Source: Nitratireductor basaltis
GTDB taxonomy: Bacteria; Pseudomonadota; Alphaproteobacteria; Rhizobiales; Rhizobiaceae
Direction: 5' to 3'
Length of the DNA: 64,000 nt
Assembly (NCBI RefSeq): GCF_000733725.1
Contig: NZ_JMQM01000001.1
Location: 1,922,001-1,986,000 of the forward strand
The translations under genes and the position numbers were made by a program. The notes below the pieces were generated by a model. The model was not told the origin of the DNA, did no database searches, and saw only the letters and a list, made by a program, of their open reading frames with translations. Positions 11,646-25,270 of this stretch are shown one piece after another. Every line of letters begins with the position of its first letter. Positions within the stretch are counted from its first letter, which is position 1.

Positions 11646-13091
11646 TCATTGACCTGCGGCGGAAACTGCCCTTGGTGTTTGGTCAAACTGTCTTGCGGCG
11701 ACCGCCGCGAATACCGGGCCGATGCCGATGAGTACAGGCTCATCGTAGCCAGTGATGGCAATACCTTCGGGAAGGGAGCGAAGCGGCCCGGACCATAGTT
11801 CGAAGCCCTCGCGTGACACGGCCTTCGAGATGACCACGGGCGTGCCCGGGTCCATGCCAGCGGCAGCAAGCCTGACCGAGATTTCTGTGGCAGTGCGTCC
11901 AGCCATATAGAATATCGTGGTGGTTCGGGGATCAGCAATCCCGGCCCAGTCCATCTCTGCCGGCATTTCGCCATGACGGCTGTGACCGGTCGCGAATCGC
12001 ACTGACTGCGCGTGATCCCTGTGTGTCAGGGACACACCGAGTTCGGCAGCCATCGCGAGTGCGGAGGTTATCCCCGGAACCACGCAGACCGGTATGCCTT
12101 CCGCCTCCAGCCGGGCGATTTCCTCGCCCGCACGGCCGAAAATCATCGGATCACCGCCCTTCAGCCGCACCACGTGCTTGCCGGCCCTGGCAAGCTTCAC
12201 CATCATATCGTTGATGTCTTCCTGTCGGCAGCTGTCGCGGCCTCCGCGTTTCCCCACCAACATGCGCCGTGCCTCACGGCGGGCGAGTTCCAGAACGTCG
12301 CCCGAGACGAGATCGTCGAACAGGATGACGTCGGCGGCCTGAAGCGCGCGGACCGCCTTCAGTGTCAGCAGTTCCGCGTCACCCGGGCCCGCGCCGACCA
12401 GTGTTACCCTGCCGGTGCCCAAGGCCCTTTTCCGCTTCAGCGCCGCTGTGCCGGCGAACAGTTCCCTGACGGTTGTGGCGGTCGGCTGAGCGGCGAAGGC
12501 GTGATCGACGAAGGCTTCCCAGAAGACCCGGCGCTCACCGCCTGGAGCGAAGCGTTCATTGACCGCTGCGCGGATTGTCTGCGCGAGCTTTGCCCATGCT
12601 GCGACCGAGGGCGGAACCATGGTTTCTATACGGCGGCGGATCGCCTGTCCGAGGATCGGTGCTGCGCCATCGGTAGAAATCGCGATCACCGAGGGAGAAC
12701 GATTGACGATCGAGCCGAACTGGAACTCACAGAAGGCAGGCTTGTCGATCACGTTGACGGCGACGCCGGCAGCGCGAGCGGTGCAGTGGAAGGCCCTTGC
12801 CTCGCCATCGGTGGCAGCATCGCAGATGGCGACCTGCATGCCTTTGAAGCTGTCACAGGCCCAGGGTTGCCGGTGCCAGACATAGGCGCCGGCGCCGTCC
12901 GCAATCAGGTCGCTGAAGCCCGGGTCGAGTTCTTCGGCAAAAACATGCACCTCGGCACCTGCGGCGGCGAGCAGTTCAGCCTTCCAGGCGGCGGCTTCCG
13001 TTCCGCCCGCAATCAGCGCCTTGCGGCCATGAAGCTTGTAGAAAACCGGCAAGGTCGCGAGCGGCCCCACGCGCTCGCGTTTCTCGTTCAC
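11646..13091 (-). CDS. cysG: Siroheme synthase CysG (methyltransferase/dehydrogenase/ferrochelatase)
   Basis: A 481-residue fusion. Residues about 1-200 are the precorrin-2 dehydrogenase/sirohydrochlorin ferrochelatase half (LATLPVFYKLHGRKALIAGG, SPSVIAISTDGAAPILGQ-type dimer stretch). The rest is uroporphyrinogen-III C-methyltransferase (GRVTLVGAGPGDAELLTLKA, then VVRLKGGDPMIFGRAGEE). It makes siroheme, the cofactor of the NirB nitrite reductase encoded upstream. The GTG at 13089-13091 lies 10 bp after the nasA stop; the frame stays open to an ATG at 13130, overlapping nasA, so the start is uncertain. Last gene of the nitrate operon. Confidence 0.92.
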   Translation of the reverse strand: MNEKRERVGPLATLPVFYKLHGRKALIAGGTEAAAWKAELLAAAGAEVHVFAEELDPGFSDLIADGAGAYVWHRQPWACDSFKGMQVAICDAATDGEARAFHCTARAAGVAVNVIDKPAFCEFQFGSIVNRSPSVIAISTDGAAPILGQAIRRRIETMVPPSVAAWAKLAQTIRAAVNERFAPGGERRVFWEAFVDHAFAAQPTATTVRELFAGTAALKRKRALGTGRVTLVGAGPGDAELLTLKAVRALQAADVILFDDLVSGDVLELARREARRMLVGKRGGRDSCRQEDINDMMVKLARAGKHVVRLKGGDPMIFGRAGEEIARLEAEGIPVCVVPGITSALAMAAELGVSLTHRDHAQSVRFATGHSRHGEMPAEMDWAGIADPRTTTIFYMAGRTATEISVRLAAAGMDPGTPVVISKAVSREGFELWSGPLRSLPEGIAITGYDEPVLIGIGPVFAAVAARQFDQTPRAVSAAGQ

Positions 13092-13101
13092 GCGCCGTGC
13101 A

Positions 13102-15777
13102 TCATTCGGCTGCAATGATCTGATGCTCATCGAGGAGACCCTTGATTTCCGATTTGCAGGAGCCGCAATTGGTACCGGCGGTGGTGGCTTTCGAGATTGC
13201 GTCGACGCTCATGCAGCCGCCGCGGATCGCCCCGAGGATTTCATTGGCACCAACATTCATGCAGGCGCAGACAATCGCGCCCTTGTCAGGCATGTCATTT
13301 GCCGGCCGTCCGGCGATCACGCGCCAGCGCGATGACAGGTTCTCGAAATCCTGCCCCAACTGGTCAGCGGCCCAACTGCGCGAGACCTCCACCGGACGCT
13401 CCGAGAGGTAGACCGCTCCGGCCAGATGCACGCCGTCGAAGGCGGCATGGCGGGTCAGTCCACTCTGCGGATCAGTAAACGACAGAAGTGCGGTACCGCT
13501 ATCCAGCCCCAGAAGGTCGCAGGCGAGCACATGGCTGTCAGCCGGTGCGCCGACATGCGCGAACTCCGCACGCCAACCCTTCTGCGCTCGCGCCACCGCC
13601 CAGTAATCGAAGGTCTCGAGGGCAGGTTTCATCCGGCTGATGACGAACCCGTAAATGCTCGTCTCGAACTTTGTAAGCGTCACGGCTGTCTTCTTGAGCG
13701 CCGGCTGACCAGATACAGGATCCACCACCGGCGCGACCAGCCGATCGACGCGGGCGGAAGAGGCCCACTGGTCGGTCCAGTGCATCGGCACGAATATATT
13801 GCCCGGCTGCTGCCGCGGGGTGATCAGCGCACGCACGACAATCTCGCCGCGGTCATTGGCGACACGCACAAGACTGGCATCATCAATGCCAAGCTGCCTG
13901 GCGTCGCGGGGATTGATTTCGGCAAAGGCTTCAGCGATATGCGCGGAAAGCCTGGCGCTTTTGCCGGTTCGCGTCATCGTGTGCCAGTGATCGCGGACGC
14001 GACCGGTGTTGAGCGTAAAGCTCGCACCCGCCGCGGCAGTGTCCTTTATTGGCGGCGAAACAGACACGAAACAGGCGCGACGGTCGGCGGTGTAGTAGCC
14101 GCCCTCGGCAAAGAAGCGTGCCCTGCTGCGCGCATCGCCCTCCCCGACCGGCAACGGCCACTGGAATGGCGACAGCGCATCATAGCTTTCCCGGTTAATT
14201 TCAGCACAAGCACCAATGTCCAGGTCGCGGCTGCCATCGTTCTCGAATGCGGTCTGGGCGGCGTATTCCCGGAAAATCGCTGCCGCGTCGGTATAGTTGA
14301 AGGCCGCTTCATAGCCCATGCGCCGACCGACCTCTGCCATCTGCCACCAGTCGGCCCGCGCTTCGCCCGGAGCCGGAAGGAAGGGACGCTGGCGCGAGAT
14401 GCGGCGCTCGGAATTTGTCACCGTGCCGTCCTTCTCGCCCCAACCCAGCGAGGGCAGCTTCACATGCGCATGCCGGATCGTGTCGGTCTCGGCCACAATG
14501 TCGGAAACGACAACAAAGGGGCAGGCCTCAAGCGCGGCCTCGACCGCGTCGGCGTCCGGGAGCGAGTCCACCGGGTTGGTGGCCATGATCCAGAGTGCCT
14601 TGATGCGACCTTCGCTCACAGCCTTGAACAGATCGACAGCCTTCAGTCCCGGCCGATCGGCGATCACCGGCGATTTCCAGAAGCGTTGGACCAGCGCGCG
14701 GTGCTCCGGATTTTCTATGTCCATGTGGGCTGCGAGCATGTTGGCCAGCCCGCCGACTTCACGACCGCCCATTGCGTTGGGCTGGCCGGTCACCGAAAAC
14801 GGACCCGTTCCCGGTCGGCCAATGCGGCCGGTCGCAATATGGCAATTGATGATCGCGTTGACCTTGTCGGTGCCGGAGGCGGACTGGTTGACGCCCTGAC
14901 TGTAGACCGTGACGACCTTTTCCGCCGCTCCCCACATTCGGTAGAACGTGTCCAGTTCTGTCGCCGTCAGCCCGGTCTGCGCCGTCAGTTCGGAAAGCCC
15001 GACCGCGCGGGCCGCGGCAAGGGCGGTCTCAAAACCGCTGGTATGTGCCTCGACATAGGCCGCATCAACGAGACCTTGATCGTGGATATGGGCGAGGAGG
15101 CCGAGGAACAGGGCGACATCGCCATCCGGAGCGATCGGCAGATGCAGGTCGGCAATGTCGGCGGTCATGGTGCGGCGCGGGTCGATGAGCACCACCTTCA
15201 TGCCGGGTCGCGCTGCCTTGGCGGCGGCAATCCGCTGGTAGAGCACAGGATGGCACCAGGCGAGGTTCGATCCCGTCAGCACCACCAGATCGGCCAGTTC
15301 GAGGTCCTCGTAGGTCCCGGGAACCGTGTCACTGCCGAAGGCACGGCGGTGACCGGCAACCGAGGAAGCCATGCAAAGCCGTGAATTGGTGTCGATATTG
15401 GCCGAGCCGATGAAGCCTTTCATCAGCTTGTTGGCGACGTAATAGTCCTCCGTCAGGAGTTGACCGGAGACGTAGAATGCGACGCTGTCAGGCCCATGCT
15501 CGGCGATTGCGGAAGAGAAGCGCTTCGCGACCGTGTCGAGTGCCGCGTCCCAGGTGGCACGCTCACCCCGGATTTCCGGATAAAGCAGCCTTCCGTCCAG
15601 ATCGAGTGTCTCGGCGAGTGCCGACCCCTTCGAACAAAGTCGCCCGAAATTGGCGGGGTGCTCGGGATCGCCCCTGACCGCGACAACGCCTTGTCGGTTG
15701 CTGCTTGCAACTACACCGCAGCCGACCCCGCAATAGGGGCAGGTTGTGCGCACCTCCAGGCCCGGCTCGTCCCTCAT
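13102..15777 (-). CDS. nasA: Assimilatory nitrate reductase catalytic subunit NasA
   Basis: An 891-residue cytoplasmic Mo-bisMGD reductase converting nitrate to nitrite. The N-terminal [4Fe-4S] ligands are in TTCPYCGVGCGV and GRLCSKGSALAE. Molybdopterin oxidoreductase segments follow (TNSRLCMASSVAGHRRAFG, GQPNAMGGREVGGLANML), then the dinucleotide-binding domain (LNTGRVRDHWHTMTRTGK), and at the C-terminus a BFD-type [2Fe-2S] domain (IVCACMNVGANEI ... GTNCGSCKSEIKG). Start overlaps the nirD stop by 4 nt. No separate diaphorase subunit is encoded nearby, so the C-terminal cluster probably receives electrons from a reductase or ferredoxin encoded elsewhere. Confidence 0.95.
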   Translation of the reverse strand: MRDEPGLEVRTTCPYCGVGCGVVASSNRQGVVAVRGDPEHPANFGRLCSKGSALAETLDLDGRLLYPEIRGERATWDAALDTVAKRFSSAIAEHGPDSVAFYVSGQLLTEDYYVANKLMKGFIGSANIDTNSRLCMASSVAGHRRAFGSDTVPGTYEDLELADLVVLTGSNLAWCHPVLYQRIAAAKAARPGMKVVLIDPRRTMTADIADLHLPIAPDGDVALFLGLLAHIHDQGLVDAAYVEAHTSGFETALAAARAVGLSELTAQTGLTATELDTFYRMWGAAEKVVTVYSQGVNQSASGTDKVNAIINCHIATGRIGRPGTGPFSVTGQPNAMGGREVGGLANMLAAHMDIENPEHRALVQRFWKSPVIADRPGLKAVDLFKAVSEGRIKALWIMATNPVDSLPDADAVEAALEACPFVVVSDIVAETDTIRHAHVKLPSLGWGEKDGTVTNSERRISRQRPFLPAPGEARADWWQMAEVGRRMGYEAAFNYTDAAAIFREYAAQTAFENDGSRDLDIGACAEINRESYDALSPFQWPLPVGEGDARSRARFFAEGGYYTADRRACFVSVSPPIKDTAAAGASFTLNTGRVRDHWHTMTRTGKSARLSAHIAEAFAEINPRDARQLGIDDASLVRVANDRGEIVVRALITPRQQPGNIFVPMHWTDQWASSARVDRLVAPVVDPVSGQPALKKTAVTLTKFETSIYGFVISRMKPALETFDYWAVARAQKGWRAEFAHVGAPADSHVLACDLLGLDSGTALLSFTDPQSGLTRHAAFDGVHLAGAVYLSERPVEVSRSWAADQLGQDFENLSSRWRVIAGRPANDMPDKGAIVCACMNVGANEILGAIRGGCMSVDAISKATTAGTNCGSCKSEIKGLLDEHQIIAAE

Positions 15778-16106
15778 TTTTGCGTACCGAACGAGAGCAG
15801 GATGTCGTCGCCCTCGCGCTTGACGGGAAATGTTCTCGTCTGTCCTTCATCAGCGCCCTGGGCCAGCCCTGTTTCGAGACTGATCACCCAGTTGTGCAAG
15901 GGACAGGTCACGCAGCCGTCATGGATGATGCCCTGACTGAGCGGTCCGTTCCTGTGCGGGCACTTGTCCTCGAGCGCAAAGACGCGGTCATCGACGGTGC
16001 GGAACACGGCGATGCTCATTTTGGCGTTGCGGATGCATCGCGAGCCGCGCCGGGGAATGTCGTCCAGCTTGCCGATCCTGATCCAGGTCTGTGAGATCGC
16101 GTTCAT
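15774..16106 (-). CDS. nirD: Nitrite reductase small subunit NirD
   Basis: A 110-residue Rieske-like small subunit of NADH-dependent assimilatory nitrite reductase. Unlike many NirD proteins that have lost the cluster, both Rieske ligand pairs are present: C49-P-H51 (KCPHRNGPLSQG) and C68-P-L-H71 (CPLHNWVISLETG). It overlaps nirB and nasA by 4 nt each, so it is translationally coupled. Its large-subunit partner is interrupted by a stop codon (see nirB), so its function depends on whether NirB is made. Confidence 0.92.
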   Translation of the reverse strand: MNAISQTWIRIGKLDDIPRRGSRCIRNAKMSIAVFRTVDDRVFALEDKCPHRNGPLSQGIIHDGCVTCPLHNWVISLETGLAQGADEGQTRTFPVKREGDDILLSFGTQK

Positions 16107-17215
16107 TCCGCCGCCTCCAGGCCCAGTGTCGCCATCGGCTTGAATTCATGCTTGTCCTTGCCAGACACGCGCTCGGACCAAGGGTCGACCTGGGCAAATT
16201 TCTGCGAAAAGACGAAGCGGTCGTAATAGGCCTTGCGCTTGTCGGGCTGCTGCATGATCTGGCTGCGTATCTCATCAAGCCCCACGCGCTTTGCCCATTT
16301 GTAGATGCGTTCGAGATAGCGGCCCTGCTCGCGATACATCTGCGCCAGTGCCACGACATGCTCCATCACCTCCTCTTCGGTCCTCACGTGCCCGAGGATT
16401 TCGGTGCCCTTGATGTCGAGACCGGCAGCGCCGGCGAAATGGATCTCATAGCCACTGTCGACACAAATGATGCCGATGTCCTTGCAGGTGGCTTCGGCGC
16501 AGTTTCGCGGGCAGCCCGACACTGCCATCTTCAGTTTTGCCGGCGTCCATGAGCCCCACATGAACCGTTCCAGCTTGATACCAAGCCCGGTCGAATCCTG
16601 GGTGCCGAAACGACACCAGTCGGTGCCAACGCAGGTTTTCACGGTTCTCAGGCCCTTTGCGTAGGCCTGTCCGGAAACAAAGCCGGCCTTTCCAAGGTCA
16701 GCCCAAACAGCCGGCAGGTCCTCCTTGCGGATGCCGAGCAAGTCGATGCGCTGGCCGCCGGTGACCTTGACGGTCGGGATGGAAAACTTGTCGACCACAT
16801 CGGCGATGGCGCGCAGTTCCAGCGAAGAGGTAACACCGCCCCACATTCGCGGGACCACCGAATAGGTGCCGTCCTTCTGGATGTTGGCGTGCACGCGCTC
16901 ATTGATGAAGCGCGACTGGTAGTCATCGGCGTATTCGTCGGGCCAATCGCAAACGAGATAGTAATTGAGTGCAGGACGGCATTTGGCGCAGCCGCAGGAT
17001 GTCTTCCACTCGAGTTCCTGCATGATGGCGGGTATCGACTTCAGATGCTTGGCCTTGATCAGCCTGCGCACGTCGTCATGACCGAGGTCGGTGCAGCCGC
17101 ATATCGGCGTGACGGCCGCCGGATTGTAGGCTTCGCCAAGCGTGAGCACGAGCAATTGTTCGACCAGACCCGTACAGGTGCCGCAGGAGGCGGACGCCTT
17201 GGTGTGGGCGCGCAC
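16103..17215 (-). CDS. nirB: NirB C-terminal part (siroheme/[4Fe-4S] nitrite reductase domains)
   Basis: A 370-residue open frame from a possible GTG restart at 17213-17215, 22 bp past the TAG. It carries the second BFD cysteine pair (CGTCTGLVEQ), a second BFD-like segment (CGCAKCRPAL), the ferredoxin-like half-domain (GTYSVVPRMWGG) and the siroheme-[4Fe-4S] ligands C-x5-C (TCVGTDWCRFG) and C-x3-C (VSGCPRNCAEA). GGGG about ten bases before the GTG could permit re-initiation. As a separate chain it would lack the NADH/FAD domains. Six-electron reduction of nitrite to ammonium is the family reaction. Confidence 0.7.
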   Translation of the reverse strand: MRAHTKASASCGTCTGLVEQLLVLTLGEAYNPAAVTPICGCTDLGHDDVRRLIKAKHLKSIPAIMQELEWKTSCGCAKCRPALNYYLVCDWPDEYADDYQSRFINERVHANIQKDGTYSVVPRMWGGVTSSLELRAIADVVDKFSIPTVKVTGGQRIDLLGIRKEDLPAVWADLGKAGFVSGQAYAKGLRTVKTCVGTDWCRFGTQDSTGLGIKLERFMWGSWTPAKLKMAVSGCPRNCAEATCKDIGIICVDSGYEIHFAGAAGLDIKGTEILGHVRTEEEVMEHVVALAQMYREQGRYLERIYKWAKRVGLDEIRSQIMQQPDKRKAYYDRFVFSQKFAQVDPWSERVSGKDKHEFKPMATLGLEAAE

Positions 17216-17236
17216 GTCGTCCAGCCCCGTCAGGCC

Positions 17237-18556
17237 CTAGGACATAATTGTCGAAGTGATCTTCGACTTGCAGACGCCGTTGCAACCGCAGATTTCCGCA
17301 TCATCGGGCAAGGCTGCAACGGCTGCCAAAGGGTCCATCTGGGACCCTCCCTGATAGGCTTGGCCGAAAATAAGAGATTCCCGCATATCCGAGATGTCGG
17401 TCTGTTTCTTGAGATGATCAAAGAACCAGGCGCCATCGGCGGTTTCACCGTAAAGCACTGCCCCGATGATGCGGTTGTCCTTGAGCACCAGCCGCTTGTA
17501 GACGCCAGCGGCGGCGTCGCGCAGCACGATTTCCTCGCGGTCCTCTGCCTCGGCGAAATCGCCGACCGAGTAGAGATTGATGCCCGTGACCTTGAGCTTG
17601 GTCGCTGTCGAGGTCTCGACGAACCGCCTGCTCATGTCACCCGCAAGATGGGCGGCAGCCACCTCGGCCATCTGGTAGAGCGGCGCCACCAGCCCGTAGA
17701 CATTGCCGTTGACTTCCACGCATTCGCCTACCGAATAGATGTCGGGATCGCTGGTCTGCATGTGGTCGGAAACGACGATGCCGCGATTGACCGACAATCC
17801 GGCCTCCTTTGCCAGCGCGACATTGGGTCGGATACCGACTGCCATCACCACCAGCGTCGCAGGGATGATGGTCCCATCCTCAAGCTCGATGCTCTCGACA
17901 TGGGTTTCACCATGTATCTGCTTGGTGCTGGCCTTGGTGATGACCCTGATGCCGCGGCTTTCGAGTTCCTGCTCGAGAAGATAACCCGCAGCCGGGTCCA
18001 GCTGGCGCTCCATCAGCGTCGGCATCAAATGGATCACGGTGACATCCATGCCGCGCTCCTTGAGGCCTGCCGCAGCTTCAAGTCCGAGCAATCCGCCACC
18101 TATGACAACCGCCTTTCCGCGCGACTGCGCCGCAAGCAGCATCGCGTCGACATCGTCGAGATCGCGATAGGTCAGGACGCCGGGCAGCGTGTGACCCGGC
18201 ACCGGGATGATGAAGGGAGCCGAGCCGGTGGCAATGACCAGCTTGTCGTAGGCAGCGACCTCGCCATGCTCCGAGGCAACGGTCTTGGCCTCACGATCGA
18301 TCTCGACGACCTTGTGCCCCTTGTAGAGCATGACGCCGTGCTCGACGTACCAGCCGTCACCATGGATGATGATATCTTCGAAACTCTTCTCGCCAGAGAG
18401 AACCGGTGAAAGCATGATCCGGTCGTAATTCACACGCGGCTCGGCGTTGAAGATCGTAACCTGATAAGCATCCGGCGCCGCATCGAAGAGATGTTCGAGC
18501 ATCCGTCCCGGTGCCATTCCATTGCCGATGACGACAAGCTTTTGTTTCTCTGTCAT
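17237..18556 (-). CDS. nirB: NirB N-terminal part (FAD/NADH oxidoreductase domain)
   Basis: A 439-residue frame with the FAD-binding start KLVVIGNGMAPGRMLEHL, the second dinucleotide fold KAVVIGGGLLGLEAAAGL, and GIVVSDHMQTSDPDIYSVGE near the FAD C-terminal motif, ending just after the first BFD cysteine pair (CGCNGVCKSKI). The start lies 4 bp after the nrtCD stop. It would supply electrons from NAD(P)H to the siroheme half. The truncation removes the second cysteine pair needed for the [2Fe-2S] cluster. Confidence 0.78.
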   Translation of the reverse strand: MTEKQKLVVIGNGMAPGRMLEHLFDAAPDAYQVTIFNAEPRVNYDRIMLSPVLSGEKSFEDIIIHGDGWYVEHGVMLYKGHKVVEIDREAKTVASEHGEVAAYDKLVIATGSAPFIIPVPGHTLPGVLTYRDLDDVDAMLLAAQSRGKAVVIGGGLLGLEAAAGLKERGMDVTVIHLMPTLMERQLDPAAGYLLEQELESRGIRVITKASTKQIHGETHVESIELEDGTIIPATLVVMAVGIRPNVALAKEAGLSVNRGIVVSDHMQTSDPDIYSVGECVEVNGNVYGLVAPLYQMAEVAAAHLAGDMSRRFVETSTATKLKVTGINLYSVGDFAEAEDREEIVLRDAAAGVYKRLVLKDNRIIGAVLYGETADGAWFFDHLKKQTDISDMRESLIFGQAYQGGSQMDPLAAVAALPDDAEICGCNGVCKSKITSTIMS

Positions 18557-18560
18557 GAGC

Positions 18561-20321
18561 TTACTCCGCTGCGGTTAGGTTGGTCGCCGCGTTCTTCTGG
18601 CGGGCGATGCGTTCCGACCGTTTTCGAGAAATGGATTGCAGCTGCGCCTTTGTCGGATTGGCACCGCCTTCATAGGCTTCGAGGAATTCGAGCAGTTCTT
18701 CGCGATAGGCATAGTAGTCGGGGTGGCCAAGCAGCGCCTTGCGCGAGCGCGGACGCTCCAGGTCAACGTCCATGATGTTGCCGATCCGGGCATTGGGTCC
18801 GTTCGACATCATCACCACCCGGTCGGCCAGCAGAATGGCCTCGTCGACATCGTGGGTAACGCAAATGGCGGTGACCTGAGTACGCTTCCAGACATCCATC
18901 AGCACGTCCTGCAGCTCCCAGCGGGTCAGGCTGTCGAGCATGCCGAACGGCTCATCGAGCAGCAGCAGCTTGGGCGACAAGGCGAAAGCACGGGCGATAC
19001 CCACTCGCTGCTTCATGCCGTTCGACAGATCAGAAGCCACGCGGTGCATGGAATCGAGCAGGCCGACGCGCTGCAGATAGTATTCCGCCACGTCGTTGCG
19101 TTCCGCCTGGGTCGCGTTCGGGTACACCCGGTCGACACCGAGTGCGACATTCTCATAGGCCGTCAGCCATGGCATCAGCGATGGTGCCTGAAACACCACC
19201 GCCCGGTCGGGTCCTGCCTGGGTGATGTGCTTGCCGTCGAGGATGATCGCGCCTTCGGTGATCGGGTTGAGACCCGCCACCATCGACAACACCGTCGACT
19301 TGCCGCAGCCCGAATGACCGATGAGTGTGGCGAATTCGCCCTTCTTCATCTTCATCTCGAAACCGTCGACGACGGTCAGTGGCCCCTTCGGGGTCGGGTA
19401 CACCTTCTTCAGCTGGCTGAATTCAAGATATCTGTCGTCCTTCAGTGCTGTGGACGCCTCGACATAAGCCTTCGGCAGCTTTTCCTTGCCGAGTGAGATC
19501 GGCACGATGTCGGGCAGGCGGATGTCACGTTCCGCCTCGGCTCCGCGCTCGGCTCCAACTTCCATCAGATAGGTGGTGATCTCGCCGCGCAGTCGAATGA
19601 AGTCCGGGTCCGAGTTCATGTCGGCCCGATTGCGGGGCCGGGCTATGGTGACCGGAAAGTCGGGGCCAAGCGTCGCGTTCGGACCCGGCTTGAGCGGTAT
19701 GATCCTGTCGGCGAGAAGAATGGCTTCATCGACATCATTGGTGATGAGGATGATGGTCTTCTTCTCTTTCTGACAGATATCGGCGAACTCGTCCTGCAAC
19801 TTGGCGCGGGTGAGCGCATCGAGGGCGGAGAGCGGCTCGTCGAGCAACAGCACTTCAGGCTGCATGGCGAGCGCACGCGCAACTGCGACCCGCTGGCGCA
19901 TCCCGCCCGAGAGTTCCGAAGGCTTGCGATCCCGGGCATGGCTCAGCCCCACCATGTCGATATAGGTATCGGCAATGGCGGTCCGCTCGGTGCGGGACTT
20001 CTTCTTGAAGACGCTGTCGACGGCAAGGCTGACATTGCCGGCCACCGTCAGCCACGGCATCAGTGAGTATGACTGGAACACGACACCGCGCTCAGGCCCG
20101 GGCCCGTCGATTTCCGTTCCCTTGTAGATCACTCCGCCCTCATCGGGCTCGATCAGCCCGGCGAGCAGGGAGATCAGGGTTGTCTTGCCCGAGCCGGAGA
20201 AGCCGACAATGGCGATGAACTCGCCCGCTTCCACCTTCAGGTTGATGTTGCTCAACACATCCGTGCGCTTGGCACCTTCGCCATAGGACTTGGACAGCCC
20301 GGATATTTCCAGAATGGTCAT
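18561..20321 (-). CDS. Nitrate ABC transporter, tandem ATP-binding protein
   Basis: A 586-residue fusion of two NrtD/TauB-type ATPases. Half 1 has Walker [10 protein letters not shown], signature [15 protein letters not shown] and Walker [13 protein letters not shown]. Half 2 starts near residue 300 and has GHSGCGKST, the variant signature [15 protein letters not shown] and [12 protein letters not shown]. The first half ends its H-loop region LITNDVDEA (Asn for His), while the second keeps VTHDVDEA, so the two sites are probably unequal. Cyanobacterial NrtC joins an ATPase to an NrtA-like domain; here both halves are ATPases, so it combines the NrtC and NrtD roles. Ten bases after nrtB. Confidence 0.9.
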
Positions 20322-20331
20322 TGCGTCCCTC

Positions 20332-21399
20332 CTACCGGTTTGCCGAGAAGGTGAAGGCGCGCTGCAGGGCGAACATCAGCCGGTCGAGCATGAAGCCGAT
20401 AATGCCAATGGTCAGAACCGCGACCATGATCTTGGCGAGTGACTGGGACGAGCCGTTTTGAAATTCATCCCAGACGAATTTGCCCAGACCGGGGTTCTGC
20501 GCCAGCATTTCAGCCGCGATCAGCACCATCCAGCCTACCCCCAGCGATAGGCGCAGTCCGGTGAAGATCAGTGGCAAGGCCGACGGCAGCACCACCCGGG
20601 TTATGGTGCGCGAGGTTGGCAATTGCAGCACGCGCCCGACATTCATCAGGTCCTTGTCGACCGAAGCCACGCCGAGTGCCGTGTTGATCAGCGTCGGCCA
20701 CATCGAGCAAAGCGTGACGGTTACCGCCGAGATCAGCAGCGACTTTGGCATCCAGTCATAGGGCGTGGCATATGTGGCCGAGATGATCATGGTCACGATT
20801 GGCAGCCAGGCCAGCGGCGACACCGGCTTGAAGATCTGGATCAGCGGATTTATCGCGCCATTGAAGGTTTTCGACAGGCCCGAGCCGATTCCCAGCGGAA
20901 CCGCGATCAGGGTGGCGATGCCAAAACCGAGACCAACAGTCAGCAGCGATGTGACGATCTGGTCGAGATAGGTTGGCTTGCCGGTGTAAGTGCGGAATTT
21001 CGGCTCCTTTCCGGCGGCAACCAGCTTCTCGTTGCGCTGGTCCTGGCGCTCGTAGAAAGCCGCAGCTTTCTCGCGTTCACGGGTGTGGTCGTCCCAGAGA
21101 TTGCCGGCCTGTTCCCAGACTTCCACCGGACCGGGGACAGCACCAAGGGAGGTCTCCACCTTCGGGGCGAGAACGCCCCATGCAAGGAGGAAGGCCAGGA
21201 TGCCCAGAAGCGGGACAAGCAACACCCGCTTGAGTTCAGCCAACTGTGCCCGCGGGCTGTCACCAGCGATCATGCGCAGGATCGGAACCAGCCATGAAAA
21301 GCCGAGTGCATCGAGCCAGCCGCTTGCTTTGCTGATGACGGAGAAGACCTTTTCGCGGCCGCTGAGGGCAATTGGTGCGGTATCGGTGGCATTTGCCAT
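20332..21399 (-). CDS. nrtB: Nitrate ABC transporter permease NrtB
   Basis: A 355-residue BPD_transp_1 permease. The ATG at 21397-21399 has AAGGA about ten bases upstream; the frame extends to 21459, but that extension covers an intergenic hairpin. It has an N-terminal hydrophobic segment ([14 protein letters not shown]), a periplasmic loop of about 70 charged residues, then five to six membrane segments with the coupling loop [19 protein letters not shown] and [19 protein letters not shown]. Partner of the tandem ATPase and of NrtA. Confidence 0.9.
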
Positions 21400-21434
21400 C
21401 GTTTCAGATCCTTCTGAAAAGACATTCCGGGGTG

Positions 21435-21454
21435 GAGTGCCCCGCAGGGCGCTC
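21435..21454 (-). other. Stem-loop between nrtA and nrtB
   Basis: An 8-bp stem with one G-T pair (21435-21442 with 21447-21454) and a 4-nt loop lies 19 bp after the nrtA stop, without a following T run. It probably protects the nrtA message or partly terminates, giving more binding protein than permease. Confidence 0.5.
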
Positions 21455-21473
21455 CGCATGGTTGCTGCAGGCC

Positions 21474-22847
21474 TCAGCCGCCTACGACTTCCTCGCCCTT
21501 GAGACCGATGGTCAGGCTGTCGAGATAGTCGTTTGGCGCCTTGCCGTCATAGGCGATGCCATCAATGATGTCGGCGGCAGGTGTAGGCGCGCGGTAGCCG
21601 TCCGTGTCCCAGGGGAAGTCGGCTTCGGCCACATGGCCTTCGTCGACCAGCATGCGGGCAGCTTTCAGATAGATGTCCGGCAGGTAGACCGACTTGGCAG
21701 TCTCGTGGAACCACTCATCCGACTTGGCCTCCGGGATCTGGCCCCAGCGGCGCATCTGGGTCAGATACCAGACCGCGTCGGAATAATAGGGATAGGTGGC
21801 GTAGTAGCGGTAGAAGACGTTGAAGTCCGGCACCGCGCGCTTGTCGCCCTTCTCGTATTCGAACGTGCCGGTCATCGAGTTGGCGATCACTTCGGCATCG
21901 GCACCTACATATTCCGAACGCGCCAGGATCTCGACGGCTTCTGCCCGGTTGGCATTGTCGTTCTCGTCAAGCCATTTTGCCGCGCGGATCAGCGCCTTCG
22001 TGAGCGCGAGCGTGGTGTTGGGATTCTCCTCGGTAAACTCCTTGGTCAGACCGAAGACCTTTTCCGGGTTGTTCTTCCAGATTTCGTAGTCGGTGATCAC
22101 CGGCACGCCGATGCCCTTGAACACGGCGGCCTGGTTCCACGGTTCGCCGACGCAATAGCCGTCGATCGTGCCTGCCTCCAGCGTGGCCGGCATTTGCGGC
22201 GGAGGCGTCACCGACAGAAGCGCATCGGCGCCGATCTGGCCGGAAACATCCGATGGCGAATAGTAGCCGGGATGGATGCCGCCCGATGCAAGCCAGTAGC
22301 GCAGTTCATAATTGTGGGTGGAGACCGGGAACACCATGCCCATGTTGAACGGGCGGCCCTGCGCCTTGAACCCGTCGACAACCTTTTTCAGCGCATCGGC
22401 CTTGATCGGATGCACCGGCTTGCCGTCGGGCCCTTTTTCAAGGTGCGGCTTCATCAGCTCCCATACCTCGTTCGACACGGTGATGCCGTTGCCGTTGAGA
22501 TCCATGGAAAACGGGGTGACGATGTGCGCCTTGGTGCCGAAGCCGATGGTCGCAGCAAGCGGCTGGCCCGCCAGCATATGAGCACCATCAAGCTCTCCCG
22601 TGATGACACGATCGAGCAGCACCTTCCAGTTGGCTTGCGGCTCAAGCGTGACGAACAGGCCCTCGTCCTCGAAGTAGCCCTTCTCATAGGCGATGGCCAA
22701 GGGCGCCATGTCCGTGAGCTTGATGAAACCGAATTTCAACTCGTCCTTCTCGACGTCGAGCATCTCGGCCTGGCCGGGTGTCAGCATGCTCGCGGACGCC
22801 AGGGCGAGCGTGCTTAGTGCAAGGGCGGTACGCCGTGTGAAATTCAT
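21474..22847 (-). CDS. nrtA: Nitrate ABC transporter substrate-binding protein NrtA
   Basis: A 457-residue CmpA/NrtA-family periplasmic protein. The ATG at 22845-22847 follows AGGGAG. The leader [20 protein letters not shown] has a twin-arginine-like RR and a hydrophobic core ending near GQA. The mature protein shows [32 protein letters not shown], the ligand-site stretch [17 protein letters not shown] and [16 protein letters not shown]. First structural gene of the nitrate operon, preceded by a sigma-54 promoter and an attenuator. Confidence 0.92.
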
Positions 22848-22891
22848 GATCACTCCCTGTCTCCTCTGGCGGCCGTGTGTGTGACCGCGAT

Positions 22892-22953
22892 AAAAAAAAG
22901 CCGCCAAATCGAGAGTCCCCGCGGAAGGATGCGGAAAACTTCGATTTGGCGGC
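22892..22953 (-). terminator. Leader attenuator (intrinsic terminator) of the nitrate operon
   Basis: A perfect 13-bp stem (22941-22953 with 22900-22912) enclosing a smaller GC hairpin is followed on the minus strand by eight T (22892-22899). It lies about 45 bp before the nrtA start and after the promoter, so it would stop transcription before any structural gene unless antitermination occurs. NasT-type ANTAR proteins are known to act on such leaders. Confidence 0.88.
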
Positions 22954-22965
22954 GTTGCCTAGATA

Positions 22966-22981
22966 GATCCCTCGTTGGACC
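22966..22981 (-). promoter_or_regulatory. ANTAR (NasT) target hairpin in the nitrate leader RNA
   Basis: On the minus strand GGTCC-AACGAG-GGATC forms a 5-bp stem (one G-U) with a six-base loop. The loop has A at position 1 and G at position 4, the known requirement for ANTAR-domain RNA binding. It lies 12 bases upstream of the terminator stem. The second hairpin expected upstream is not clear; a weaker stem around 22990-23003 lacks the A1/G4 loop. Confidence 0.7.
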
Positions 22982-23013
22982 CTATGTCAGCCTTGTAAAG
23001 CTACTCCAAGCCA

Positions 23014-23029
23014 TGCAACGGGCATGCCA
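23014..23029 (-). promoter_or_regulatory. Sigma-54 promoter of the nitrate operon
   Basis: On the minus strand TGGCATG-CCCG-TTGCA fits the -24/-12 consensus TGGCACG-N4-TTGCW, with the invariant GG and GC dinucleotides at the right spacing. The predicted start is near 23003, giving a leader of about 155 nt that includes the ANTAR hairpin and the attenuator. This implies control by RpoN and an NtrC-type activator under nitrogen limitation. Confidence 0.82.
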
Positions 23030-23076
23030 CTTTCAGAAAAAATTCTTTTTTCGTTTGATATCATGCACTTGCTTTT

Positions 23077-23095
23077 CTGCTCAATTTACGAGCAG
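23077..23095. promoter_or_regulatory. Inverted repeat upstream of the sigma-54 promoter
   Basis: CTGCTC-N7-GAGCAG (23077-23082 with 23090-23095) is a perfect 6-bp inverted repeat about 50 bp upstream of the -24 element, a usual distance for an enhancer-binding-protein site. It does not match the textbook NtrC site closely. It could also act as a terminator hairpin for nasS. Confidence 0.4.
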
Positions 23096-23178
23096 ATTTA
23101 TTTTCTGCGCACATATTATGCAAATCAGATAGGGCAAAGACTAAAAAACAGCCAACCTGCCCTGTTTCACCGGACAGT

Positions 23179-24393
23179 TCAGTCTGCCTGACGTGCGATA
23201 TAGGCATCCAGCCCGTCGGGATCGAAGATCGTTCCGTCGAAGAACCCGTCCGGGCCGAGATACAGGAATTGGGAGGAGGCACCGACAGCAGTCGTCTCCC
23301 TCAACGCCCCTTCCACCTTGGAGTTTGCAGACGGCACGGGAACGTCAATCCCGGTCAATGCAGCGCGGTAGATGTCCGGTCGGTAGCTCTTGCGCACCAT
23401 TTCCGCATGTTCTGCAGAATGGCCGACATAGCCACAGCGCACCATCTGGGAATAGAACCACAAGGCATGGCTCTGCCAGGGGAAGGTTGCAGCACGGGCA
23501 TGCGGCTGAAAGAAATCCCGCCCCTCATTGGGTGCAGACATTCCTAAAATGGAGCCGTCAAGCGCCGGCAGGATGAACTCGACAGGTTGGTCGAGATAGG
23601 AAGAAGAGCCAAGAAGCGACGCCAGTTCGAAGTGGTTTGCGGACTGGCCGCACCACTCGGCCGCGCGATAGAGCGCGCGCAGGAGGGCGTGAAGTGTTTC
23701 GGTATTCTCACCCGCCCAGTCTTCCCGTACCGCCAGCACCTTTTCAGGACTTGAAGCCCAGATCGAGGATTTGGTGGTGATGATCTGCCCGGCGCCCCGG
23801 GCCACACCCACCGAATTCCAGGGTTCGCCGACGCAATAGCCGTCGATCTGACCCGATGCCAGCGCATCGGCCATAAGCGACGGCGGCAGGATGACGATCT
23901 CGATATCGCGGTCGGGGTTGATCCCGGAGGCGCTGAGCCAGTAGCGCAATTCGAAGTTATGTCCGGAGAAAGGATGGACGACACCGAATTGCAGCGGTTT
24001 TTCGCCGCTTGATCTGCCTTCCGCAACGACATCGGCAAGGGCCCGTCCCGCCACTGCGGCATCCAGCCCACTAAACCCGCTGCCCTCCTGCATCCGAGCC
24101 AGCAGCGCATTGCTGACAGTGATCGCATTGCCGCCCAAACCAAGCGCCATCGGCGCGATGAGCCGCGTGTCGAAGGGCGTCAGCCCCAAATTGGCGGCGA
24201 TGGGCATCGGTGCCAGAGCATGGGAAATCTCGAACTGGCCCACCGCAAGCTTGTCACGAATATTGGCCCAGGAAGTTTCGCGCACCAGATTGAGCGCGAT
24301 GCCCTCGGCTTCGGCAAAGCCACGTTCCTTCGCGGCAATCAGGATGGCACTGTCGGTCAGGGGCAGAAACCCGGCACTGAGTTCCGTGATCAT
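23179..24393 (-). CDS. nasS: Nitrate/nitrite sensor protein NasS
   Basis: A 404-residue NrtA/CmpA-family protein without a signal peptide (starts MITELSAGFLPLTDSAIL), which marks it as the cytoplasmic sensor rather than a transporter component. The ligand-site motif [20 protein letters not shown] parallels NrtA ([12 protein letters not shown]), as does FELRYWLSASGINPDRD. Known NasS proteins hold NasT inactive until nitrate or nitrite binds. Its ATG directly follows the nasT stop. Confidence 0.9.
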   Translation of the reverse strand: MITELSAGFLPLTDSAILIAAKERGFAEAEGIALNLVRETSWANIRDKLAVGQFEISHALAPMPIAANLGLTPFDTRLIAPMALGLGGNAITVSNALLARMQEGSGFSGLDAAVAGRALADVVAEGRSSGEKPLQFGVVHPFSGHNFELRYWLSASGINPDRDIEIVILPPSLMADALASGQIDGYCVGEPWNSVGVARGAGQIITTKSSIWASSPEKVLAVREDWAGENTETLHALLRALYRAAEWCGQSANHFELASLLGSSSYLDQPVEFILPALDGSILGMSAPNEGRDFFQPHARAATFPWQSHALWFYSQMVRCGYVGHSAEHAEMVRKSYRPDIYRAALTGIDVPVPSANSKVEGALRETTAVGASSQFLYLGPDGFFDGTIFDPDGLDAYIARQAD

Positions 24394-24993
24394 CTAGCTG
24401 CCCTCGTCCCCAAGCAACCGCGCCGACATGACGAGGCTTTCCGCCACATCCACGATCTTGCGGTTTCCGTTCATTGCTGCCTTGCGCAGCAGTTTGTAGG
24501 CGGTGTCTTCATCGACCCCGCGCGACTTCATGATCAGCCCTTTTGCCTGGTCGATCACCTTGCGTTGCTCGAGTGCTCCGCGGGCTTCCTCGAGTTCCCG
24601 CTCCAAACGGGAGAACGCGTTGAAGCGGCTGATCGCCATGTCGAGAATGCTCTTGACGCGCTCCTGCCGCAAACCGTCCACGACATAGGCTGAGACGCCC
24701 GCGTCAATCGCCGATTGCATGGCTTCCTTGTCGGAGCGGTCGACAAACATCGCAATCGGTCGCTTCACAGCGCGTGACAGCTGGAAGATGCTTTCGAGCA
24801 TGTCCCGGTTCGGGTTCTCCAGATCAATGACGATCACATCCGGCTCATGCAGCGCAATCTTGGCCGCTATGCCGCGCATCTCGTTTATCACTGTCACCTG
24901 GTTGTGCCCGGCAGCCGCCAGCCCCGCCTCGATGATCGAAGCGCGGGTTGCGTTCTCATCAATGATCAGCACTGACGGCAGCCCTTCACCCAT
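24394..24993 (-). CDS. nasT: ANTAR-domain antiterminator NasT
   Basis: A 199-residue response-regulator-like protein. The receiver-like domain (SVLIIDENATRASIIEAG, DVIVIDLENPNRD) lacks a full phosphorylation quartet. It is followed by a coiled coil (about residues 125-145) and a C-terminal ANTAR RNA-binding domain (RKVIDQAKGLIMKSRGVDED, AYKLLRKAAMN). When released from NasS it binds leader hairpins and prevents termination; a matching leader lies ahead of nrtA. The ATG at 24991-24993 is chosen over an upstream frame to 25032. It abuts nasS. Confidence 0.92.
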   Translation of the reverse strand: MGEGLPSVLIIDENATRASIIEAGLAAAGHNQVTVINEMRGIAAKIALHEPDVIVIDLENPNRDMLESIFQLSRAVKRPIAMFVDRSDKEAMQSAIDAGVSAYVVDGLRQERVKSILDMAISRFNAFSRLERELEEARGALEQRKVIDQAKGLIMKSRGVDEDTAYKLLRKAAMNGNRKIVDVAESLVMSARLLGDEGS

Positions 24994-25270
24994 ATGGCCA
25001 CTTTGCGCAGTTCTCGAGCGCGTGCAATGCACAATTTTTCAAAATGACCGGCTTGCGAAGTTCGAAGCCGAAGGCATGCAGAGTGTCCGAACTCCCATTG
25101 GCGATGCGCTCCAGACGATCGAGGCCGCATCGGTGCGGCTTGGCTGTGCCGCAATCATGCGATCGCTTTTCCCGGCGACGCAGGTGCCCTTTTACACTTC
25201 AAAAGCGCCCGTGCATCCAATTGCCTTCTCCCTTATAACGCTCCGACGACAGTCAGCGGGAGGGCCTCGC
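24994..25270. other. Divergent promoter region nasT / tetR
   Basis: This 277-bp gap holds the start regions of nasT (minus) and the first TetR gene (plus). The perfect palindrome GTGCA-A-TGCAC at 25022-25032 lies 29 bp upstream of the nasT ATG and could be an operator. No consensus promoter was clear, and the copy of the operator found at 29831 and 30785 is absent here. Confidence 0.4.

Follow-up and report, generated by a model that had tools for sequence, protein, structure and literature searches.

The nas operon and its interrupted nirB

The window, that is, the whole stretch of 64,000 nucleotides of the Nitratireductor basaltis genome analyzed here, carries on its minus strand a nas operon in which nirB contains an in-frame amber codon. 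The features of the locus, given in coordinates of the window, are listed below.

11646–13130, minus strand: presumably a cysG-like gene, open and conserved (alignment)
13102–15777, minus strand: nasA/narB, assimilatory nitrate reductase, open, with its own C-terminal BFD domain (Pfam, alignment)
15774–16106, minus strand: nirD, small subunit, intact (open by translation; ends counted by hand)
16103–17236, minus strand: nirB 3' piece, comprising the end of BFD domain 1, BFD domain 2, NIR_SIR_ferr and NIR_SIR (Pfam; dN/dS)
16103–17215, minus strand: possible re-initiation ORF from a GTG, 370 aa (ORF; ribosome-site score ordinary)
17237–17239, minus strand: in-frame TAG, nirB codon 440 (sequence and alignment of related loci)
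17237–18556, minus strand: nirB 5' piece, comprising the 439-aa NADH/FAD flavoprotein half and the first half of BFD domain 1 (Pfam; Flp-like)
18561–20321, minus strand: presumably an nrtC-like ABC transporter ATPase, open (alignment)
20332–21459, minus strand: presumably an nrtB-like permease, open (alignment)
21474–22907, minus strand: presumably an nrtA-like nitrate-binding protein, open, start uncertain (alignment)
23179–24393, minus strand: presumably an nrtA/nasS-like protein, open (alignment)
24394–25032, minus strand: nasT-like ANTAR regulator, open, with an ordinary TAG at the conserved C-terminus (alignment)

The name nasA/narB rests on the place of the gene and on likeness, as the best NCBIfam models stay below their cut-offs. 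The nrtA, nrtB, nrtC, nasA, cysG and nasS-like genes align with those of relatives over most of their length, some of the related loci ending earlier. Of the nasT-like gene these loci cover just the last part, in which the alignment with most relatives extends to residue 211 of 212; the nas cluster of Sinorhizobium medicae has an annotated ANTAR regulator. As an earlier note on this DNA had claimed, the remainder of the operon is intact in that all other genes are open.

The nirB gene runs from 18556 to 16103, ends with a TGA (16105–16103) that overlaps the ATG of nirD, and has a single in-frame TAG at 17239–17237 (codon 440), in the minus-strand context ATT ATG TCC TAG GGC CTG ACG. Read through, it encodes 817 residues with the stop counted as residue 440, that is, 439 codons before the TAG and 377 after it. 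The read-through product scores 896 bits with the model TIGR02374 (cut-off 578) and contains FAD/NAD, BFD and NIR_SIR domains; taken singly, the two pieces score 498 and 377 bits, both below the cut-off, and the TAG at codon 440 breaks what would be one uninterrupted chain. The alignment with eleven close relatives, all of them stop-free, has no gaps. As the frame is conserved over 817 codons, a TAG inside it is no chance feature of an ORF, and the stop is a real feature of the assembly. This bears out the earlier proposal of an amber codon within nirB, with the same conserved frame on both sides, produced by one substitution without a frameshift. The Ser-Lys-Gly-Leu proposed as the normal reading is found in six of the eight nearest Hoeflea-type loci, the two others having Ser-Arg-Gly-Leu and Ala-Lys-Gly-Leu. 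A genome search shows nirB in a single copy, with no second copy found, the assembly consisting of five contigs and being rated 100% complete.

According to Pfam, both Pyr_redox_2 (residues 6–291) and Rubredoxin_C (318–385) are complete in the 5' piece. Instead of the single BFD-like cluster described before, the read-through product has two BFD-type stretches; the better one (485–534) lies entirely within the 3' piece, and no BFD match is found by Pfam in the 5' piece alone. The cluster motifs, counted by hand, are CxCxxxC (C423, C425, C429) followed by CxxC (C458, C461), and we take the ligands to be the CxC and CxxC pairs. The stop indeed cuts BFD domain 1 between its two motifs, the first of which is CxCxxxC and not CxxxxC as had been stated.

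Codon 440 among relatives, read-through, and the age of the stop

Of 97 related loci compared, 95 are aligned at codon 440, with lysine in 48, a gap in three, other residues in 44, and a stop in none. Among the ten nearest nirB loci, which are 87.5–93% identical (L070, L071, L106, L072, L103, L073, L075, L076, L074, L077), nine have lysine and one has arginine. Comparison with close relatives, suggested beforehand as a check, agrees with a lesion private to this strain at that codon. Two separate ORFs cut at codon 440 and common to relatives are found in none of the 95 aligned loci, and nirB is uninterrupted in L070, the nearest locus; a split gene conserved as two cistrons is thus rejected.

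In a first draw of 297 genomes from the family, 154 match nirB with an E value of at most 1e-100, and in-frame stops are present just in N. basaltis (G000) and in G262 among about 150 of the 154 matches listed (down to about 1069 bits); G133, G222 and G316 stand outside this listing and were examined separately, and G278 was left out. A second draw of 393 genomes from the family, of which 215 match nirB, yields a stop in G262 alone among the matches listed (down to about 1486 bits; N. basaltis is not among them), and a draw from the order (397 genomes, 141 nirB matches at 1e-200) yields one in N. basaltis alone. The three draws share genomes.

The operon could still function if read-through, recoding or re-initiation yielded one or two working NirB chains, and conservation of the 3' half would fit this. 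The possible suppression raised earlier gains no support: a tRNA family search of the genome gives 44 tRNA genes, with an anticodon assigned to each by ARAGORN, and the amber-suppressing CTA is found in none of the 44, a list from which tRNA-Ile(GAT) and tRNA-Ala(TGC) are missing. Two tRNA-Met genes are located near contig ends of the assembly and, given these and the two missing tRNAs, the rRNA operons have probably been broken or collapsed at contig ends. A tRNA-Leu with anticodon TAG in L063 was considered as a suppressor and rejected, since it reads CUA. Reassignment of TAG is rejected as well, because TAG is an ordinary terminator: in 464 kb of the genome, 46 of 228 long ORFs end with it when nirB is set aside (47 of 229 with the nirB 5' frame; long ORFs were selected by their codon-position G+C pattern). 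A codon-score scan for interrupted genes reports 30 stop sites, the known nirB site not being among them, and hence has no power to find such genes.

As to re-initiation, the GTG mentioned in the earlier note is present, starting at 17215, 21 and not 22 bases from the TAG. Its anti-Shine–Dalgarno energy is –5.0 kcal/mol, which is ordinary among nirB codon positions (5% point –7.2, 25% point –4.6), and in this respect the proposed restart is not substantiated. Among the presumed starts in the operon the energies are –10.7 (nrtC), –9.3 (nirD), –6.1 (nirB), –3.8 (cysG) and –3.0 kcal/mol (nasA); the GTG thus scores better than the starts of nasA and cysG, whose values show that a start can have a low score. 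The GTG is unremarkable as a ribosome site, yet a possible start. Moreover, the break falls within one BFD domain, and no aligned relative has TAG at codon 440. Recoding, suppression or designed re-initiation is unlikely, and we consider it highly improbable that working NirB is made in any of these ways.

Strong conservation persists in the 3' half, which points to a recent lesion, or else to a base error. Relative to L070, dN/dS is 0.059 for the 5' half of nirB and 0.069 for its 3' half. Of the comparisons with the eight Hoeflea-type loci, six show the 3' half evolving faster than the 5' half and two (L103, L073) show it evolving more slowly; in four pairs of relatives it is slower every time (0.045–0.067 vs. 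0.067–0.099). Changes private to N. basaltis comprise 24 synonymous and two non-synonymous in the 5' half, and 27 and 12, respectively, in the 3' half (Fisher P = 0.033; the same contrast gives P = 0.10 when counted by changed residues and P = 0.095 by private residues). The 3'/5' branch ratio is 1.63, with a bootstrap range of 0.87–3.15 and 5.5% of 200 replicates at or below 1; it is higher in three of the eleven relatives (2.14 in L103, 1.94 in L075, 1.82 in L074) and equals 1.59 in L070. The signal of relaxation in the 3' half is weak, and no second lesion is found in N. basaltis nirB.

By these comparisons, the lesion would be either young or not real. A base error in the assembly, leaving nirB of the strain intact, would account for a single substitution with everything else open and a 3' half under purifying selection, and a single wrong base would appear identical to a true lesion; in-frame nirB stops are also rare, being seen in two genomes among the approximately 150 of 154 matches listed. 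On the other hand, the assembly is complete and in few contigs, replacements in the 3' half are slightly in excess, and the substitution sits away from long homopolymers. A substitution in such a place is an unusual kind of assembly error. On balance we regard the error as unlikely, although it has to be taken seriously. A literature search for broken nirB genes led to PMC3856593, whose passages deal with a silent change in nirB, not a stop.

The nas cluster probably has a history different from that of its genome. NirB of N. basaltis is 91–93% identical to NirBs of seven Hoeflea loci, compared to 75–83% for nine genus-mates (a nirB match by DNA is found in 13 of 15 genus-mates), and the region 11707–24561 of the window aligns with Hoeflea sp. 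NORP7 at 82%, to the edge of that locus. For sucC, the 15 genus-mates are the closer ones (88–94%), with 84–89% in nine of ten named genomes of Hoeflea, Ahrensia and Oricola (84–88% in Hoeflea) and no sucC match in L072. As nirB and sucC give different nearest relatives, the cluster was probably acquired horizontally from a Hoeflea-like donor, the contrast being with one housekeeping gene.

Shortened nirB genes and stand-alone flavoproteins

The stop in G262, also a TAG, is independent of that in N. basaltis and falls at codon 421 in window numbering, two codons ahead of the first cysteine of the cluster (L155, 3571–3573); three genomes of the same genus (G332, G356, G420) have nirB without a stop.

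In G316, NirB is matched just once at E 1e-20, up to residue 402. This N-terminal half has 404 codons from the start of the match and ends with a TGA, the ATG of nasA following five bases on (L200, 3724–9001), and the next ORF after nasA is of the NirA family (759 bits vs. cut-off 523, with 500 residues read). In a tree of 81 sequences it is nested in full-length NirBs, with support of 0.995 for the grouping with Aureimonas-type sequences and then 0.983, and therefore the C-terminal half was lost in the G316 line or in that of its donor. Two genomes of the same genus, G421 and G204, have full-length NirB without a stop, and since the G421 gene (L189) groups elsewhere in the tree, the N-terminal half in G316 may have been gained by transfer. 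From its gene order, G316 seems to be a case of natural swap of NirBD for NirA.

In total, six changes that shorten or break NirB are found among the 154 genomes (G278 left out), at codons 440, 421, about 386, 404, 641 and about 119. In addition to N. basaltis, G262 and G316, these are a frameshift at about codon 386 with a TGA close behind (G133), a frameshift at codon 641 (G033), and replacement of the first 119 residues by an unrelated open frame (G244; L201, about 5304, minus strand), the latter presumably reflecting misassembly or rearrangement. Four of the six lie within 55 codons (scan P = 0.014) and five of the six after codon 385 (P = 0.14), both calculated post hoc. As a lead, lesions may gather at the seam of NirB, some of them perhaps being assembly faults. 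The count excludes two genomes seen in the second family draw only, G391 and G334, whose frameshifts near codon 402, at a GGGGG run (L197, about 3941, minus strand; L198, about 4499), are possible sequencing errors, or else a possible hot spot or slippage site; both assemblies have five contigs, and in G334 the gene is broken once more near codon 120. G222 was rejected as a lesion, its pieces stopping at contig ends, that is, at a contig break.

Thirteen loci, selected for a second, shorter NirB-like match (L109–L113, L115–L117, L119, L120, L124, L140, L141), encode, immediately in front of nasA, a stand-alone protein that matches NirB from residue 1 to about 400, and each also has a separate two-half NirB. 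They come mostly from Gammaproteobacteria, two being labelled Burkholderiales or Bordetella; L019 (frameshift) and L146 (from an actinobacterium, with one more short match) also have two matches and were left out. We call the stand-alone proteins Flp-type by likeness. Eleven of them have 399–443 codons from the start of the match, and the three scanned with Pfam contain Pyr_redox_2 and Rubredoxin_C.

The N-terminal half of N. basaltis NirB is 43–56% identical to the stand-alone proteins, compared to 37–41% for the N-terminal halves of the other NirBs of the same loci. In a tree of 57 N-terminal halves, full-length NirBs of Alphaproteobacteria fall together with the stand-alone proteins at a support of 0.987, with inner nodes at 0.83 and 0.975, and are separate from the other full-length NirBs; the joint group is also present in the 81-sequence tree (0.956). 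The root was set by midpoint, which allows either direction, fusion or fission. The 439-aa 5' ORF of N. basaltis agrees with the Flp-type proteins in size (approximately 400–440 aa), in having Pyr_redox_2 and Rubredoxin_C, and in lacking a siroheme domain; it is not located directly before nasA, as the remainder of nirB and nirD intervene.

Consequences for nitrite and nitrate, and comparison with known systems

The siroheme domain PF01077 is present in N. basaltis in nirB and in one 608-codon frame (two half-matches), and nowhere else. This other siroheme protein, encoded at L069 1408–3180 on the minus strand, reaches no NCBIfam cut-off, scoring 231 and 224 bits with nitrite reductase models (cut-offs 594 and 523) and 111 bits with the CysI model (cut-off 757). 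It adjoins a gene for cysH, phosphoadenylyl-sulfate reductase (268 bits, cut-off 154), and has counterparts of 60–74% identity in all four relatives checked (G332, G262, G316, G204), of which G332 and G204 also have stop-free NirB. Coexistence of the counterparts with stop-free NirB and the adjoining cysH argue that it is no replacement for NirB; it looks like a sulfite reductase, which may have some side activity on nitrite. A search of the genome for a copper nitrite reductase gives three weak matches, all below the cut-off. For these two reasons nitrite assimilation should fail in the strain.

The earlier note had predicted that, without read-through, nitrate could be reduced and nitrite would build up. 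By the siroheme census, the second part, loss of nitrite reduction, is likely; the first is less straightforward because the nitrate step would depend on NirB itself, since the NirB homologue NasB of Paracoccus passes electrons from NADH to nitrate reductase, according to the part of PMC5424462 that was available. In Bradyrhizobium japonicum, as described in an excerpt of PMC4724949, Flp is required for growth on nitrate and not on nitrite, a nirA mutant accumulates nitrite from nitrate, and mutants led to the proposal that Flp is the NADH electron donor to the assimilatory nitrate reductase. Passages of two further papers report that growth on nitrate is barely seen in a Sinorhizobium meliloti nirBD–narB deletion strain (PMC6616083), and that NarB of Rhizobium etli converts nitrate to nitrite (PMC6514139). 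By analogy, it is plausible that NirB cut after its flavoprotein half still reduces nitrate with NasA.

The amber codon might then convert bifunctional NirB to an Flp-type flavoprotein serving nitrate reductase alone, a change that would be adaptive or tolerated. Such a conversion would agree with the occurrence of stand-alone proteins directly before nasA in the 13 loci (selected for the short match), the clustering of alphaproteobacterial N-terminal halves with these proteins, the clean 404-codon version in G316 followed by nasA and a NirA-family gene, and the independent TAG of G262. However, no NirA-family gene over the cut-off is found in N. basaltis, so this is not a clean swap as in G316, and the clustering of lesions was noticed post hoc; we find the conversion quite improbable. 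A broader scheme, which we put forward tentatively and hold to be unlikely as a whole, is that alphaproteobacterial NirB would consist of an Flp-type flavoprotein with a nitrite reductase attached, and that nonsense or clean truncation just beyond residue 400 would repeatedly undo the join, leaving a nitrate-only electron donor for NasA. In G316 the process would be complete, with NirA taking the nitrite, and N. basaltis and G262 would be young, nitrite-excreting amber intermediates.

The reading that we favor, with moderate confidence, is that a young nonsense substitution ended nirB at codon 440, so that the nitrite step is lost and nitrate reduction may continue. Translation would stop at the TAG, given that no suppressor tRNA was found among the 44 and TAG is an ordinary stop. 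The product would be a 439-residue NADH/FAD flavoprotein without the siroheme centre, in an operon whose other genes are open. Reduction of nitrite to ammonium by NirB would be lost, and nitrite would be expected to build up when nitrate is present. Nitrate reduction may well continue, because the surviving half is built like the stand-alone Flp-type proteins found before NasA.

Taken alone, this amounts to a recent loss of function in one gene of nitrogen assimilation, or to a base error there. What gives the stop weight is its position at the seam where the NADH flavoprotein of NirB meets the nitrite reductase, and what is new here is the anatomy, as the stop would leave a complete NADH/FAD flavoprotein resembling the stand-alone Flp-type proteins. 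If truncated NirB still feeds NasA, such strains would excrete nitrite made from nitrate, which neighbours could use. If true, the seam would also explain how a nas operon exchanges NirBD for NirA, as G316 seems to show.

Compared with known systems, the read-through product is alike NirB/NasB as modelled by TIGR02374, differing by one in-frame TAG. The 5' piece is like Flp of Bradyrhizobium, as far as the latter is described in the available part of PMC4724949, in having FAD and NADH domains without a siroheme domain and a gene close to nasA, this likeness being one of domains and gene place taken from the description of Flp and not from its sequence. It differs from Flp by about 40 extra residues with half a BFD domain, and by the remainder of nirB and nirD standing between it and nasA. 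Finally, with its single stop and no further decay, nirB of N. basaltis is like a young nonsense pseudogene; unlike an ordinary one, it leaves a complete module that is found as a stand-alone protein elsewhere.
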